NCBI GenBank assembly: GCA_951813605.1
Contig: OX638379.1
Coordinates: 1,002,471 to 1,066,470, forward strand
Direction: 5' to 3'
DNA from: an uncultured Bryobacterales bacterium
GTDB lineage: Bacteria > Acidobacteriota > Terriglobia > Bryobacterales > UBA6623
DNA length: 64,000 nucleotides
Shown here piece after piece: positions 50,019 to 59,508 of the stretch. The translations under genes and the position numbers were made by a program. The notes beneath the pieces are model-generated. The model saw only the letters and a program-made list of their open reading frames with translations. It did no database searches and was not told the DNA's origin. Each line of letters opens with the position of its first letter. Position 1 is the stretch's first letter.

Positions 50019-51653
50019 GTGAGGGGGCTGGCTGCATTGCTGACAGTGGCCTGCGCTTCGAGCGCGTGGGGCCAGGGCCCCGACTTCAGCCTTGACATCG
50101 AGTTTCGGCGCGAGCGGCCTGTGGACCGGGTACTCGCCAAGACCGATCCCCTTGAAGATGTTTGGATCGGGGAGCGCGATTATCAGGCAGTAGATTCCAA
50201 ACTCAAGGAAATCTCCGAATTCCTGCTTGACGACCCGGGCTCGTTCGAGCCACTCGCGGAAGCGACGAGGGGCTTTCGAAACCTCCGACTGGCAGAATTC
50301 AAGATCGTTTCGACAGTCCGGGAGGGCGATTCGGACGACCCTGTGCGCATCGCAGTCCGCATTGAGCTGGGCGGAGAGGCATCCGATGGGGGCGTCCTTT
50401 CCAGGCTCGGGGCGGCGGAGATGTCATGGCATAACACGTCCGGCGTTTGGGCCGTACGGTCTGCCGTGCTTGGGGAATTCCGCGATCTACGTGCGAGCAG
50501 CTACGGGTTCGCGGAGATCACGGATCAGGTGTTCGGCGAGATCGACTCGTTCCGCGAGCAACTGAGCCTAGGGATAGACCACTGGAGGGACTCGCTGGAC
50601 GCGGCTCTGGGTGTCTCGATCTACGGTCATCAAGGGATTTCCTTGGGCGACTTTGACGGAGACGGATTAGAAGACATTTATATAGGCCAACCAGGCGGAC
50701 TGCCAAATCGCCTCTATAGGAACAACGGTGACGGCACTTTCTTGGATGCGACCCATCGAGCAGGACTGGACGTCCTTGATGACACCTCGATGACCCTGCT
50801 TAGCGATATCGACAACGATGGCGACCAGGACCTGATCCTGATTGGCGCGACGCCGATGCTGTACCGCAACGGCGGAGACGGCCGGTTCACTCTTGATTCG
50901 GACGCAGGATTGGATGTGCCCGAGGACAAAGCGGCGATGTTTACCGGGGCTGCTCTAGCCGACTACGACCTTGACGGCGACGTTGACCTTTTCGTCTGCG
51001 CCTACGATTTCTGGCAGGCCGGGGCGGAATACGACGCTCCGACTCCTTATTACGACGCTGTCAACGGTCCTGCAAATCTGCTCTTTCGGAACGAGGGGCA
51101 GGGCACTTTCGCGGAAGTTTCCGAGGTCGCCGGGCTGGAGGACACCAATGATCGTTTTAGCTTTGCCGCTGCTTGGGGTGATTACGACAATGATGGCGAC
51201 CCCGACCTCTACGTCGCGAACGACTTCGGACGAAACAATCTCTACCGAAACGACGGAGACGGCACCTTCAGCGATGTTGCTGAAGCGCTTGGGGTGGAGG
51301 ATCTCGGGGCGGGCATGTCGGCTGCTTGGGGCGACTATGACAACGATGGTGACTTGGACCTCTATACCGCGAACATGTGGTCCTCGGCCGGGTTGCGGAT
51401 CACTACTAGCTCTCAGTTCGACACTGTGGCACCTGACGAGCTGGAGCGCGGCCGGTTCCAGCGGCAGGCGCAAGGGAATTCCCTTTTCCGTAACGACGGA
51501 TCGCGGGGCTTTAGTGACGTGAGCGAGGAGGCGGGGGTTCGCACCGGAAGGTGGGCATGGGCATCGGACTTCGTGGACCTCGATGCGGACGGACTGCTCG
51601 ACCTATTTGTCCAGAATGGGTACGTCACCGGTGAGCAGACAGACGATCTTTGA
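50019..51653 (+). CDS. CRTAC1-type FG-GAP/VCBS protein, N-terminal part (split by in-frame TGA)
   Basis: First 544 residues of a ~1220-residue secreted protein. GTG 50019 begins a signal peptide (LAALLTVACASSAWGQG). After a ~190-residue N-terminal domain come FG-GAP/VCBS calcium-binding repeats with D-x-D-x-D-G-x-x-D-L motifs (GDFDGDGLEDIYIG, SDIDNDGDQDLILIG, ADYDLDGDVDLFVC, GDYDNDGDPDLYVANDF, GDYDNDGDLDLYTANMW), a predicted beta-propeller. The frame stops at TGA 51651-51653, right after NGYVTGEQTDDL, and continues unbroken in the same frame with SFFWRQVV, which in related proteins is one continuous segment. I regard this and the next entry as one broken gene, or one recoded at TGA. Confidence 0.8.
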   Translation: MRGLAALLTVACASSAWGQGPDFSLDIEFRRERPVDRVLAKTDPLEDVWIGERDYQAVDSKLKEISEFLLDDPGSFEPLAEATRGFRNLRLAEFKIVSTVREGDSDDPVRIAVRIELGGEASDGGVLSRLGAAEMSWHNTSGVWAVRSAVLGEFRDLRASSYGFAEITDQVFGEIDSFREQLSLGIDHWRDSLDAALGVSIYGHQGISLGDFDGDGLEDIYIGQPGGLPNRLYRNNGDGTFLDATHRAGLDVLDDTSMTLLSDIDNDGDQDLILIGATPMLYRNGGDGRFTLDSDAGLDVPEDKAAMFTGAALADYDLDGDVDLFVCAYDFWQAGAEYDAPTPYYDAVNGPANLLFRNEGQGTFAEVSEVAGLEDTNDRFSFAAAWGDYDNDGDPDLYVANDFGRNNLYRNDGDGTFSDVAEALGVEDLGAGMSAAWGDYDNDGDLDLYTANMWSSAGLRITTSSQFDTVAPDELERGRFQRQAQGNSLFRNDGSRGFSDVSEEAGVRTGRWAWASDFVDLDADGLLDLFVQNGYVTGEQTDDL

Positions 51654-51674
51654 AGTTTTTTCTGGCGGCAGGTC

Positions 51675-53687
51675 GTGTCGCAATCCCCCCTTCGAGCGGA
51701 GGGCTCCAAGGACTATGAGGACGCCTGGCGCGCCATCAACATCCTGATCCGATCAGACGGAAGTTGGAGCGGCAGAGAGCGCAACCTGTGCTTCCGCAAT
51801 CGCGGGGACGGGACTTTCGAAGACATTTCGTTCTTGAGCAGCCTCGACCTCGATGCCGATGGTCGGGCGTTCTTACCGCTGGACATAGACGCCGACGGGG
51901 ACGAGGACCTGATTGTCAAGAACCGCAACGGGCGGCAATTGAGGGCATTCCGCAATGACATGCGGCAAGGGCGGACTAGGCACCTGACGGTGCGGCTGGA
52001 GGGCAATCGCAACAACCGTGACGGTGTTGGTGGCCGTGTTTGGGTCACCACGGACCGGCGAGCGCTGATGCGCGAGATTGTCTCGGGAAGCGGATATTTG
52101 TCGCAACGATCCCGCGCGGCGAGATTCGCGCTGCCCCAAGGCGAGCGCGTGCTCAGCGTCCGCGTTCGCTGGCCCCTCGGTTTCATCCAAGAATTCAATG
52201 ATCCGCCGCAAGCGGGCACGCATTTGCTGATCGAGGGCGAGACCGCTCTCCGAAGCGTGACAAGACCACGCGCAACCCCCGCATTGTCTGAATCCGCCGG
52301 AGCCAACGAGCGCCCGCCTAGCCGAGGCACATGGCTCGCAGACCCCTTGCCAGCACCGGACTTCGAACTTCCCGTCATTAACAATCACGGGTCAACAGTG
52401 CGATTATCCCAGTGGCGCGGCCGCCCGGTGTTGCTCAATTTCTGGGCCACTTGGTGTCCGCCCTGCCGTCGGGAACTGGCTCAGTTCCAGAATCGACTGG
52501 GTGATCTGACACGGCTCGGTGCGGAAATCCTCGCAATATCGGTCGACGAGCCCGGCAATTCAAACGCCGTCATAAAGCTGGCGGAGGAGCTGGAACTTGA
52601 CTACCAGGTCTTGCTGGCCGACGCGCAGACCGCGGAGACCTACAGCGTGCTCAACGAGCGCCTTTTCGACCGCCGACGGGCTCTGGCGATTCCGACCAGT
52701 TTCCTCGTAGACCGGCTAGGGCGAATCGTGAAGGTTTATCGCGGGGAAGTCGACGCGAGCGAGATCCTAAGCGACATGCAGGCTGGAAGTGGGGACGCGT
52801 TGCCTTTCACCGGTCACTGGGCGAAATCGAATCCGCAACGGGACTTCGAGGAACTTGGATCCGCTTTCGCCGAGAGAGGCTTGGGCACGCCCGCTCGGAG
52901 GATGTTCGATCTAGCAGTGGCCCAGGGAAATCGGTCGCCTCAACTGCTTAACAACCTGGCCGGGGCCCTAATTTCGGATGGCGATGTCGGCCAGGGAGAG
53001 GAACTGCTGCGTGAGGCTCTGGCCGCGGAGCCCGGACTGACCGACGCGAAAGTCAACTTGGCAACGTTGCTCGTCGAGCGAGGCGAAACCGCTGAAGCCG
53101 AGAATCTATTGGAAGAAGCTTTGGTAACTCAACCCGAAGACGGCCAGGCTTTGTCGGTCCTCGGATCAGTTCGGTTCGCCCAAGGCAGTTTGGAAGCGGC
53201 CGAGGGCTTGTTTCGCAGATCCGTCGAGGCACGGCCAGAGGACGCCAGGTTCAGGGAGAACCTTGGGGCGGTGCTTGCTTCGCAAGGTCAATTCGAGAGC
53301 GCTCTGGCAGAGTACGAAAGGGCTCGGGACCTCGGTTCCGCCGGGGCCCCCGTTCATACCAATCTTGGCGTGCTCTATATTCAGACCGGCCGAGCAGCCC
53401 AAGCACTGGATTCCTTCCAAGAAGCGGCTGATGCAGCCCCTGATTCGCTAGGGCCGCATCTCAACTTGGCCCGTTTTCGATTGCAGGTTGGTGACATGGA
53501 CCAAGCGATGAATTCGATTCGGAAAGCCAAGGACTTGGATCCCGGGAACCTCCAAGCCCTTTTGATGGAATCCCAGGCACTCGCCATTCAGGGCAGGGTC
53601 CAAGAGGCAAGGGAGTCTGCGCAGGAGGCACTCCGTCAGCATCCTGGTTCGGTAGAGGCCACGGACCTTTTGAAGTCCCTCCGCTGA
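51675..53687 (+). CDS. CRTAC1-type protein, C-terminal part: ASPIC/UnbV, thioredoxin and TPR domains
   Basis: Same frame as the previous part, resuming after TGA 51651-51653; the first start codon, GTG 51675, is internal to the conserved SFFWRQVV segment and has no ribosome site. Domains in order: a last VCBS repeat (PLDIDADGDEDLIVKNRNG), ASPIC/UnbV (SGSGYLSQRSRAARFALPQG, VRVRWPLGF), a TlpA/ResA-like thioredoxin (LLNFWATWCPPCRRELAQFQ; CPPC at 52455-52466) and about seven TPR repeats to the C-terminus. The thioredoxin part would reduce or isomerise disulfides outside the cytoplasm; TPRs mediate protein contacts. Without readthrough this half has no signal peptide. Whole-length proteins of this architecture occur in Acidobacteriota; their function is unknown. 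Confidence 0.8.
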   Translation: MSQSPLRAEGSKDYEDAWRAINILIRSDGSWSGRERNLCFRNRGDGTFEDISFLSSLDLDADGRAFLPLDIDADGDEDLIVKNRNGRQLRAFRNDMRQGRTRHLTVRLEGNRNNRDGVGGRVWVTTDRRALMREIVSGSGYLSQRSRAARFALPQGERVLSVRVRWPLGFIQEFNDPPQAGTHLLIEGETALRSVTRPRATPALSESAGANERPPSRGTWLADPLPAPDFELPVINNHGSTVRLSQWRGRPVLLNFWATWCPPCRRELAQFQNRLGDLTRLGAEILAISVDEPGNSNAVIKLAEELELDYQVLLADAQTAETYSVLNERLFDRRRALAIPTSFLVDRLGRIVKVYRGEVDASEILSDMQAGSGDALPFTGHWAKSNPQRDFEELGSAFAERGLGTPARRMFDLAVAQGNRSPQLLNNLAGALISDGDVGQGEELLREALAAEPGLTDAKVNLATLLVERGETAEAENLLEEALVTQPEDGQALSVLGSVRFAQGSLEAAEGLFRRSVEARPEDARFRENLGAVLASQGQFESALAEYERARDLGSAGAPVHTNLGVLYIQTGRAAQALDSFQEAADAAPDSLGPHLNLARFRLQVGDMDQAMNSIRKAKDLDPGNLQALLMESQALAIQGRVQEARESAQEALRQHPGSVEATDLLKSLR

Positions 53688-54871: not shown

Positions 54872-56803
54872 ATGAAAATGCAGCGTCCGCTTGCCGTGTA
54901 CATCGCGATGCTCTTGCCGGGAGCGTTGCCTCTTGCCGCCCAGCAGTCAGGACTTATCGGCGCGGTGACTGACACGACGGGTGCAGTCATCGTCGGCGCG
55001 GACGTTGCGTTGGTCAACTCCGATACCGGCGTCGACTTTTTGGCGCAGACCAACGAGTCGGGAGCGTTCAACTTCACTCTCGTGCAGCCTGGCACCTACG
55101 AGTTGAGCTGCGAGTCGGTGGGATTCAAGACTTACCGGCAATCAGGCTTGGTGATGGAAACCGGCCTGACCAAGACTGTCACCATCCAGCTCCAAATTGG
55201 TGAGATCACCGAGACCATCGAGGTTACCGGTTCCGCGCCGCTGCTGGAGACCGAGAATACCACGGTAGGGCAGTTCATCGAGCGCACAACCGTCGCTCAG
55301 ATGCCGGTTGGCAGCCGGCAGGCGGGTCAGCTGATCAAGCTGGCTGGCAACGTGACGTTCGCCACGTCTGGCGGCGGACTCTACGACCTGCCGTTCTTCT
55401 CAATGGCGGGCGGCCGCTCACGGAATCAGATGTGGCACCTCGATGGCGGTGTCGTGCAGAACATGGCACTAGGCATCGCCCAGCTCAACCTCAACCCTCC
55501 TGTGGAATCTTTACGGGAGTTCAAGGTTGAGTCCAACAACTACGCGGCGGAATTCGGGCGCACGGGCAATGGCCTGATCATCATGAGCACCCGCTCGGGG
55601 ACTAACAATTTCCATGGCGCTCTCTACCACAACTTCCGCAATGACAAACTAGACGCCCGCACCTTCTTCGCTCCGAGCATCGCCCCTCTCCGCTATAACA
55701 TTTACGGTGGCTCGTTTGGTGGCCCCATCAAGAAGGACAAGTCATTCTTCTTCGTCAATCACGAGGGACAGCGTCGCAGCGACGGCCTCACCATCGCGAA
55801 CACCGATGTGCCGCACCCCGTTGAAACCCAAGGGGATTATTCGAATCGCTCCGGCTTCGCACTCACCGACCCGCTTACCGGCGATCCCTTTGACAACAAC
55901 ACGATTCCCCAGAGCCGCATCGATCCTCTCGGCAGGGCATTCGCCAGCCTGTATCCCGCACCCAACAGACCCAGCCCCGCAGGCAGCGCGCCGCGGGACA
56001 ACTTCGTCAAGAACGTCGCGAATAGAGGCATCTCGGACTTCACCACCGTCAAGGTTGACCACAACTTCGGGGCCGATGACCGAATCTCGAGCCGCTTCAG
56101 TTACGTCAACGCGCCGGCCGAGCCAGAACCCGTCTTCCCCAACGAGTTCGCGGACTTCCGCGCTTCCAAGCAGACACGCTCCAACCTCGTCTCGACCTCG
56201 ACTTGGAACCACAATTTCACCACCACGATGGTGAACGAGTTCCGCTACACCTTCGGAAACCGCACCTTCACAACCCGCGGCCTCGGTACCGGCAGTGGCA
56301 AGAACGGAGAATTGGGCGTACCGAATGTCGATCCGGAGTTCTTCGCCACCGTAAACCTCACCGGGTACACCCGGTTGGGAGCGGGCAACCAACAGCGCAT
56401 CCAGAAGCCCATTCGAACCCACCAAGTCGTGAACAACACCTCGTGGTTCAAAGGCGCACACAGCATTAAGTGGGGCATGGAATACCGCTATTCGCGCAAT
56501 CAGGACGACTTTAACCAATTTGCCGGCGGTAGTTTCAGCTTTAACAGCAGGGTGACAGGCGACGCTCTCGCCCAGCTTCTTCTGGGGTGGACCACGAGAG
56601 GGCAGTTGGTTGACACAGACATTCTCAACACGCGCAGCGACTATTGGGGCGTCTACCTGCAAGACAGCTGGAAGGCTACTGACAAGCTGACCCTGAACCT
56701 AGGCCTGCGTTGGGACATAGACACGCCACGCTGGGAGCTGAGCAACAATCAGAGCGGGTTTGACCCAGCGGGCATCAATCCCGTGTGCGATTGCCCAGGC
56801 GTG
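54872..56803 (+). pseudogene. TonB-dependent receptor, N-terminal part, interrupted by IS256-family element
   Basis: First 644 codons of an Oar-like receptor, from ATG 54872 (AGGGGGA upstream; signal peptide AVYIAMLLPGALPLAAQ). Carboxypeptidase-regulatory-like domain (GLIGAVTDTTGAVIVGADVA), plug region (MPVGSRQAGQLIKLAGNVTF, LIIMSTRSGTNNFHGALYHN), and the first barrel strands up to LNLGLRWDIDTPRWELSN. The IS enters after the codons for CPGV. Removing the element and one copy of the target duplication joins this frame to the one at 58186 and gives a normal 1084-residue receptor, so no other damage is present. The interrupted gene would make a truncated protein without most of its barrel. Confidence 0.9.
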
Positions 56804-58177
56804 GGGACTGTCAGAATTTCCGTGTGTGAGGTTGCTGCATCTTGATTTGCCCGTCCACGGTGACGGAGCCTATGATGCCCATGCGGCTGAGTTCTCATGG
56901 CGTCACCAGCCGAAATCTTTCGCCGAACTGGAGGGCGAACTCGGTGCGCGCCGGGTGCCAGAACGCGGGCGGCCGCACCCATTTCCGTGCGACCTTCCGC
57001 AACGCCAGGCAGAGCAGCTTGGCCGCTGCCCGGTCATTCGGGAAGTGCCCACGCGTGCGCACTGCGCGGCGCACCGTGCTGTGCAAGCTCTCCATCGCGT
57101 TGGTCGTGTAAATCGCCCGGCGTATCGGTTCGGAGAACGCGAGGAACGGGATGATCTGCGGCCAGCGGGAACGCCAGCTCCGAGCGATAGCCGGATACTT
57201 CCGTCCCCAGGGGCCGGCCTCGAACGCGTCCAGCGCGGCCTCGGCCTGCTCCGCCCCCGGCGCCCGGTAAACGGCCTTCAATGCCGCCGCCAGCTTCTTG
57301 CGCTCCTGATACGAGGCATGCGCCAGGGAGTAGCGGATCAAATGCACGATGCAGGCTTGCACCAGGGTTTGAGGATACACCGCTTCAATGACCTCCGGAA
57401 AGCCCTTCAGGCCGTCGGTCACCGCCACCAGCACGTCCTGCATCCCCCGCGCTTTCAACTCGTGCATGACCTTCAGCCAGAACTTCGCACCCTCCGTCTG
57501 CTCGATCCAGAACCCCAGCACCTCCTTGCACCCCGCGCAGGTCACCCCGATCCCCCTGTAGACCGCCTTGTTCCGCACCAGGCCCTCCTCGCGAATCTTC
57601 ACCCGCAGCGCGTCGAAGTACACGATGGCGTACACCTCCTCCAGCGGCCGCGACTGCCATTCCAGAATCTCCGCATGCACCGCGTCCGTCACCTTGGAAA
57701 TCAGCTCCGCCGAGACCGAGACCCCGTACAGCTCCTCGACATGCCCGCGCATCTCGCGCGTGCTCAAGCCCCGCGCATGCATCGCAATCACCTTGCCGTC
57801 AAAACCTGGCAGGCGCCGGCAGTACTTCTCGATCAGGCGCGGCTCGAAGCGGCCCAGGCGATCCCGCGGAACCGACCGCCTCCATCGCCCCGCTGCCCGT
57901 CAATACCCGCTTGCGGTGGTGACCGTTGCGGTGGTTCCTCGCCCCGGCCTCGTGCGCGCCCTCCAAATGCGCCTCCCTCTCCGCGTTCAGCGCCCGCTCG
58001 GCAACTGCCTTGCGCAAATCCGCCAGCAACTCGCCGTTGCGAAACGCCTCTAGCGGGTCCTCTCCCGCCAGCAACTCGTCCAATACCTCGTCGCTGATCC
58101 GCTGCCTGTGCTTCGTCATCAGAGGTCCTCCTTGCAGACCATCCTAAGACCTCACACACGTAATTTCTGACAGGGCC
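56804..58177 (-). mobile_element. IS256-family insertion sequence inside a receptor gene
   Basis: A ~1374-bp element. Terminal inverted repeats: left ACTGTCAGAATTTCCGTGTG from 56807, right complement CCTGTCAGAAATTACGTGTG, both continuing TGAGGT (26 bp, 3 mismatches). The target duplication is perfect: CCCAGGCGTG occurs at 56794-56803 and 58176-58185; 8 bp of this (CAGGCGTG) fits the family's 8-9 bp duplication, the extra matching bases being element or chance. The transposase is on the - strand and carries a frameshift. Confidence 0.9.
56895..58119 (-). pseudogene. IS256-family transposase, frameshifted
   Basis: Read on the - strand, the first frame (58119 to 57799) has the family N-terminus (LLADLRKAVAERALNAEREA, NHRNGHHRKRVLTGSG) and then loses homology after GAMEAV. 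The second frame (to 56895) has the rest: GKVIAMHARGLSTREMRGHV, the catalytic regions YAIVYFDALRVKIREEGLV, LVAVTDGLKGFPEVIEAVYP and YTTNAMESLHSTVRRAVRTR. Joining them needs one base removed (or two added) near 57873, where the second frame continues VPRDRLGRFEPRLIEKYC. The transposase should be inactive unless frameshifting occurs, which is not known as a feature of this family. Confidence 0.85.
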
Positions 58178-58185
58178 CAGGCGTG

Positions 58186-59508
58186 ATGCTGTTCTCAGGT
58201 CGTAATGGGCGCAGTAAGTACGCACATAACACCGATTTCAACAATTTCGGGCCCCGCGTGGGCTTCGCATACCGCGCGAGCAGCACTACGGTCATCCGCG
58301 CCGGCTACGGCGTTAACTACAACGGAGCCTATGCTCGGGCCGTTCCGTTCACGCAGTTCTGGACTTTCTCCAAGACACTGGACATCAGTTCCCCCGATGG
58401 CGGTTTCACGCCAGCTTTCATCCTCCGCGAGGGGCTTCCAACCGTGCAGCCCTTCAGCGAGGCCGATCGGGTCGGCTCCTTTGGGACCGTCACCGCCGGA
58501 CGGCGCACGGTATCACCGGACCTAATCCAACAAAACCAGCAGAACGGATACTCCCAGCAATGGAACCTCACGCTGCAAAAGCAGCTGCCCGACAATGTGC
58601 TGGTGGAAGCCCAGTACCAAGCCAATGTAGGGCATAGTCTCGGCGGTCCGAATTACAACTTCAACATGATCCCCCTCGTCGGAGGGCAAGGTCCCGCGAG
58701 CCAAAGCCAGACCATGCGCCTGTTCCCTCAATACAACGGTGTTTTTGTCGAGAGTCCGGATTGGGGCAACTCGACCTATCACTCGCTGAACTTGAAGGCA
58801 GAGAAGCGCTTCTCCAGCGGCCTGAGCTACCTGTTGAACTACACTTGGTCGAAGTTCATTGACGATGTCGAGTCGGCGAACGAGCTCGGAGGCGAGCAGA
58901 ACAACGGATACACTCACTTTCAGCTGCGCCATCTCGACAAGGCTCTCTCCGGCAACGACATCCGGCACCGCGCCGTGACTAGCGGCGTTTACGAGCTTCC
59001 GGTGGGGCGCAACAAGCCGCTTGCCATCGAGAATGCCGCGCTAGGCGCTTTGATCGGCGGCTGGAGCCTCGGCGCGATCGCCGAATTCCGCACAGGCTCT
59101 CCGTTTGGAGTTATCGAGCAGACGAACCGCAGCAACACATTCAGCCACGGCCAGCGCCCGAACCTGATGGGCAATCCCACGCTCTCCGGCAACCGCTCGA
59201 AGGCTGACCGTCTCGCTCAGTGGTTCGACACGTCCATGTTCGAAGCACCAGTAGCGGGCACCTTTGGAAACTCTCCCCGGAACGTCTGCTGCGGCCCGGG
59301 TTACGCGCTTGTTGACGTGTCGATCCAGAAGAGGTTCAGCATCACCGAGGATGTCAAGCTCGAGTTTCGGGCGGACTTCTTCAACATCGCCAACCACGCC
59401 AATTTCAGAATCCCGGAGCGTCGACGAGGCAATTCCGGTTTCGGCAGGGTTCGAGGCACGATCGGTACCGGACGTCAGACGCAGCTTGGACTGCGGCTCG
59501 AGTTCTAG
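58186..59508 (+). pseudogene. TonB-dependent receptor, C-terminal part after IS256-family element
   Basis: The remaining barrel of the interrupted receptor, 440 residues after the insertion point: FNNFGPRVGFAYRASSTTVI, YSQQWNLTLQKQLPDN, TWSKFIDDVESANELGG, YELPVGRNKP, GGWSLGAIAEFRTGSPFGV, and terminal QLGLRLEF. The frame is clean from the target duplication to the stop. The GTG of the duplication and the ATG at 58186 could start translation, but there is no signal peptide, so a separate product would not reach the outer membrane. Confidence 0.9.

Follow-up and report, generated by a model that had tools for sequence, protein, structure and literature searches.

The closest described relatives of the element analyzed here are insertion sequences of the IS256 and Mutator-type families. 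In the sections of PMC3942029 used for this comparison, these families are described as producing target duplications of 8 or 9 bp and as having inverted repeats of 18-39 bp, while the ISMich2 group, which is Mutator-related, has a conserved -1 frameshift in its transposase. Biofilm genes under reversible insertion of IS256-family elements have been described in Staphylococcus and Pseudoalteromonas (PMC5649170, in an excerpt citing Ziebuhr 1999 and Perez 2015). Our literature searches found no report of a TonB-dependent receptor interrupted by an insertion sequence with a target site duplication and, for the Acidobacteria, no report of a TonB-dependent pseudogene arising from an insertion sequence or a transposase.

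We analyzed an interruption of this type in a stretch of 64,000 nucleotides, hereafter the window, from an uncultured Bryobacterales bacterium (Table 1). The gene is broken between positions 56803 and 56804 and resumes after 58177. Once its flanks are joined by removing 1382 bp (1374 + 8), an open reading frame of 1084 residues spans 54872-59508, with its stop codon at 59506-59508. Searches with Pfam placed CarboxypepD_reg (PF13620) at the N-terminus, in the 5' part, and a C-terminal barrel, OMP_b-brl_4 (PF25183), split across the element, with profile positions 1-411 in the 5' part and 418-838 in the 3' part; TonB_dep_Rec_b-barrel also matched the 5' part weakly. We take the combination of CarboxypepD_reg and OMP_b-brl_4 to mark TonB-type, Oar-like receptors, and the domain content of the interrupted gene is that of a predicted TonB-type outer-membrane receptor. 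As the sequence stands, the 5' reading frame extends into element sequence, where it stops at 56845, and its product would end in half a barrel and 13 residues encoded by the element. The split receptor is most likely null, because the 5' part terminates inside the element and the 3' part is without an export signal.

Table 1. Features of the interrupted receptor gene and of the inserted element (window coordinates).
Feature	Coordinates	Strand	Remarks
Two genes upstream of the receptor (544 and 677 codons)	50019..53684	+	Homologues near the intact orthologue in relatives
Receptor 5' part, 644 codons before the insertion	54872..56803	+	CarboxypepD_reg and first half of the OMP_b-brl_4 barrel
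Left copy of the target duplication, 8 bp, CAGGCGTG	56796..56803	+	Ends fixed by sibling copies
IS256-family element, 1374 bp	56804..58177	-	Ends GGGACTGTCAG / GGCCCTGTCAG, shared with other copies
Transposase ORF B, 334 codons (listed start 57791)	56895..57899	-	Catalytic part of PF00872; +1 frame relative to ORF A
Transposase ORF A, 106 aa	57799..58119	-	N-terminal part of PF00872
Extra base, element position 303 on the transposase strand	57875	-	Shifts the frames of ORF A and ORF B
Right copy of the target duplication, 8 bp, CAGGCGTG	58178..58185	+	Ends fixed by sibling copies
Receptor 3' part, 440 codons and stop	58186..59508	+	Second half of the OMP_b-brl_4 barrel

The insertion inside the receptor gene is confirmed. 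An 11-bp direct repeat, GCCCAGGCGTG, lies on either side of the element (56793-56803 and 58175-58185) and contains the 10 bp that the first-pass annotation had given as the target duplication. The limits of the element were set from eight copies of full or almost full length in the bacterium's genome, whose ends are shared with the element in the window. The claim that a direct repeat flanks a 1374-bp IS256-family element thus holds, but the duplication is 8 bp long and not 10 bp, because the other copies fix the ends and only the removal of 1374 + 8 bp keeps the frame. A 10-bp duplication is ruled out on both counts, since 1374 + 10 bp breaks the frame. With the corrected length, deleting the element and one copy of the repeat does restore the continuous 1084-residue receptor, as had been proposed. 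The 3 bp beyond the 8 are a chance match between the right end of the element (...GGGCC) and the target (GCC). The 8-bp duplication is perfect in six of the eight copies (L001, L002, L003, L005, L006, and L007) and matches at 7 of 8 bases in L004, while L008, a copy with 86% identity, has no visible duplication. The chance of a perfect 8-bp match at independently fixed ends is 4^-8, about 1.5e-5.

The element resembles the IS256 family (Mutator-type, p-MULT 1) in its Transposase_mut domain (PF00872; E=5.1e-96 for ORF B and E=3.7e-6 for ORF A), its 8-bp duplication, its multiple copies, and its imperfect terminal inverted repeats, the arms of which (56796-56832 and 58149-58185) are 84% complementary. 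It differs from the family in that the transposase lies in two frames in the window copy and in most of its siblings instead of in a single intact reading frame, whereas relatives with an alignable N-terminal part mostly have one frame. This break in the transposase gene had been overlooked in the first-pass annotation. We read the element as a degenerate IS256-family member by descent, probably not autonomous. Scanning the element region for promoters gave one weak promoter-like match, against a mean of 0.4 in shuffled sequences.

The genome (one contig, 6.19 Mb) has 27 matches to the element, and in eight of them (L001-L008) the element is whole or almost whole. The element in the window is 100% identical to the copy at G000:C1:4549315-4550688, and comparison with L001 gave no difference over 1374 positions. 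Among 200 genomes drawn from the class, which may have held only some of the same-genus genomes, the bacterium's own genome alone matched the element at E <= 1e-60. Some copies lie in contexts of their own. At L007/L018 (G000:C1:1555292-1557768), a copy is nested within another IS256-family transposase gene, with a perfect 8-bp duplication, CGCGCCTG; the host gene is about 51-55% identical to the transposase of the window element. The copy at L009/L011 (G000:C1:5708385-5710283) is in two parts that lie about 520 bp apart, with other sequence in between, and the left flank of L006 (G000:C1 near 1704696) adjoins the 5' end of a sulfatase-like ORF, as judged by eye.

The receptor has intact counterparts in relatives. 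The joined protein has a match at E <= 1e-100 in 56 of the 61 genomes examined (its own included), mostly to paralogues. Uninterrupted orthologues with 83-85% identity were found in 7 of the 10 other genomes of the same genus (G001, G002, G003, G005, G006, G009, and G010), and one with 73% identity in a genome of another genus (G014). All eight are open across the insertion point, without a stop, and the restored junction residues, CPGVMLF, are identical in six of these eight aligned orthologues. The best matches in G004, G007, and G008 reach only 57-58% and are probably paralogues. Homologues of the two genes upstream of the receptor adjoin the orthologue, in a different order, in five of the seven relatives whose neighbourhoods were fetched, and were not found in the neighbourhoods of G002 and G014. 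These two genes precede the receptor in the window and directly follow the intact receptor in several relatives, a local rearrangement. Since gene order differs, the case for orthology is made by best match, protein identity, and common neighbours and not by strict collinearity. The first-pass annotation had named the absence of any empty-site allele, together with additional mutations in both halves, as the mark of an old, fixed loss. This combination was not what we found, and the empty site is present in other species of the genus.

The reading we favour, with a probability of roughly 0.9, is that an IS256-family element recently transposed into the TonB-type receptor gene, making the 8-bp duplication, probably as a copy mobilised in trans whose helper has since been lost or inactivated. 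The element would have entered the receptor gene by the usual route of its family, and its donor would be a copy identical or nearly so to the one at C1:4549315, given the zero differences between the two. The window copy was probably mobilised by a helper since lost or inactivated, for example a lineage without the extra base, because both identical copies are frame-broken and the search for an intact cognate transposase gave none. The genome has 49 Transposase_mut matches, none of which is both intact and close to the element transposase. Two of them, L132 and L133 (432 and 451 codons, no stop), were considered as trans helpers and set aside, being only about 27% identical to the element transposase; TGTCAGA-type ends were not found around them.

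The extra base that breaks the frame is present in 8 of the 11 distinct copies in the genome that cover the spot with at least 86% identity (with copies that appear in two overlapping loci entered a single time and L018, at 70% identity, left out). The copies with the base are L001-L005, L008, L009/L011 (one copy), and L015/L021 (one copy); L006, L007, and L016 are without it. Even so, L006 carries a different frame break, and L007 is interrupted by one in-frame TAG. Since the extra base occurs in so many copies, two old ones included, programmed +1 frameshifting looked promising at first. In the ISMich2 group too, as described in the part of PMC3942029 used here, the transposase lies in two frames, but the window element would need a +1 step, the break is found in its own genome only, and the copies show no coding constraint. 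The restriction of the break to this genome follows from the relatives in other genomes (about 60% identity or less), which mostly read in one continuous frame where the alignment spans the site. L001 and L008 differ about equally often at each of the three codon positions (35/37/39 in the part covered by ORF B only and 6/9/7 in that covered by ORF A only), and seven near-identical copies differ by 28 nonsynonymous and 14 synonymous changes. Programmed frameshifting as the main reading was therefore rejected on the even codon positions, the 28:14 changes, and the single-frame relatives, as a conserved break with coding constraint in both reading frames was not what these copies displayed. The even spread and the 28:14 ratio are as expected of decaying copies moved by a helper and not of a recoded gene under constraint, though weak recoding would also be compatible with them.

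A weaker form of this idea deserves a small share of the probability: low-level +1 frameshifting might bypass the extra base and keep the transposase alive, in which case transposition in this IS256-family lineage would be controlled by recoding. Old copies (86% and 91% identical) and brand-new ones alike carry the base. When polarised by L008, the base would be ancestral in the element family and would have been lost in L006 and L007, so the broken copies would have a long history, and this counts against decaying copies dependent on a helper. We nevertheless consider such a bypass improbable, and the frame-broken copies most likely spread widely through trans mobilisation by a now-dead helper.

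The first-pass annotation had further suggested that the insertion could be reversible or variable among cells. The element would then act as a phase-variable switch, excising precisely and re-inserting, so that only some cells would express the receptor. The locus shares with the biofilm phase variation of Staphylococcus and Pseudoalteromonas, as presented in the excerpt of PMC5649170, an IS256-family element in a gene of surface function and a perfect duplication, and the retained perfect 8-bp repeats would suit a precise excision. It departs from these systems in its broken transposase and in being known here from a single genome sequence. The suggestion is weakened by the broken transposase and by the failure to find an intact cognate transposase in the genome; in addition, the orthologues of the relatives are without the element at the receptor site. 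We thus regard a switch as very unlikely. Reversal would proceed through a cognate transposase or through replication slippage over the 8-bp repeat, and the precise loss of the element by rare slippage is possible in principle. Transposase-independent excision was reportedly described by Hennig and Ziebuhr in 2008.

The age of the insertion can be assessed from the receptor. Its 1084 codons contain no stop and no frame-breaking indel. The dN/dS between the receptor and the seven orthologues of the genus is 0.077-0.091, compared with 0.058-0.104 among those orthologues; the synonymous distances in the former comparisons are high (1.25-1.39). The eight others share 227 invariant codons, at which the receptor has changed 49 times synonymously and 3 times nonsynonymously; for L028, the comparable set has 217 codons, with 36 and 6 such changes. 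Among residues invariant in the eight others, 20 of 714 are changed in the receptor (9 before the break and 11 after it), and 16 of 710 in L028. In a pseudogene, nonsynonymous changes are expected to outnumber synonymous ones by about 2.5-3 to one. Set against this expectation, the 49:3 changes suggest that selection on the receptor can have been absent over no more than a few per cent of its branch. The receptor is without further disabling mutations, as the first-pass annotation had stated, and shows no relaxed selection, and the youth it ascribed to the insertion is supported by the identical twin element (0/1374 differences) and by a clean receptor under purifying dN/dS. The variable sites among the element copies conflict strongly, which suggests gene conversion, and conversion instead of recent transposition could also have made the twins identical.

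An old, fixed pseudogene that only looks intact would fit the fact that the empty site is known from other species only. It seems to us even less probable than a switch, given 1084 codons without a stop or a frame-breaking indel, the predominance of synonymous changes at otherwise invariant codons, and the identical twin. An assembly artefact, in which two repeats were mis-joined and the element lies only apparently inside the gene, is about as improbable, for although assembly can go astray at a repeat such as this element, with its 100% identical copy elsewhere, a single-contig genome reads through the site, the two flanks make up one gene and bear matching 8-bp duplications, and a mis-join would not yield a matching duplication of the right length.

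Besides the interrupted gene, the genome has at least 65 OMP_b-brl_4 genes (65 of 160 candidates were scored, all 65 above the family cut-off, and the interrupted gene is absent among the matches listed); the receptor repertoire is very large. With so many other receptors of this type, the loss of one may be tolerated. Overall, this is an ordinary disruption by an insertion sequence, and only the spread of frame-broken copies is mildly odd. The locus shows a gene that was disrupted recently and is otherwise still clean, in a genome whose receptors are very numerous; the IS256-family element responsible has spread though no examined copy has an intact transposase. The rest is ordinary genome flux. 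If the +1 bypass were true, insertion of this lineage into genes like that of the receptor would still be going on.
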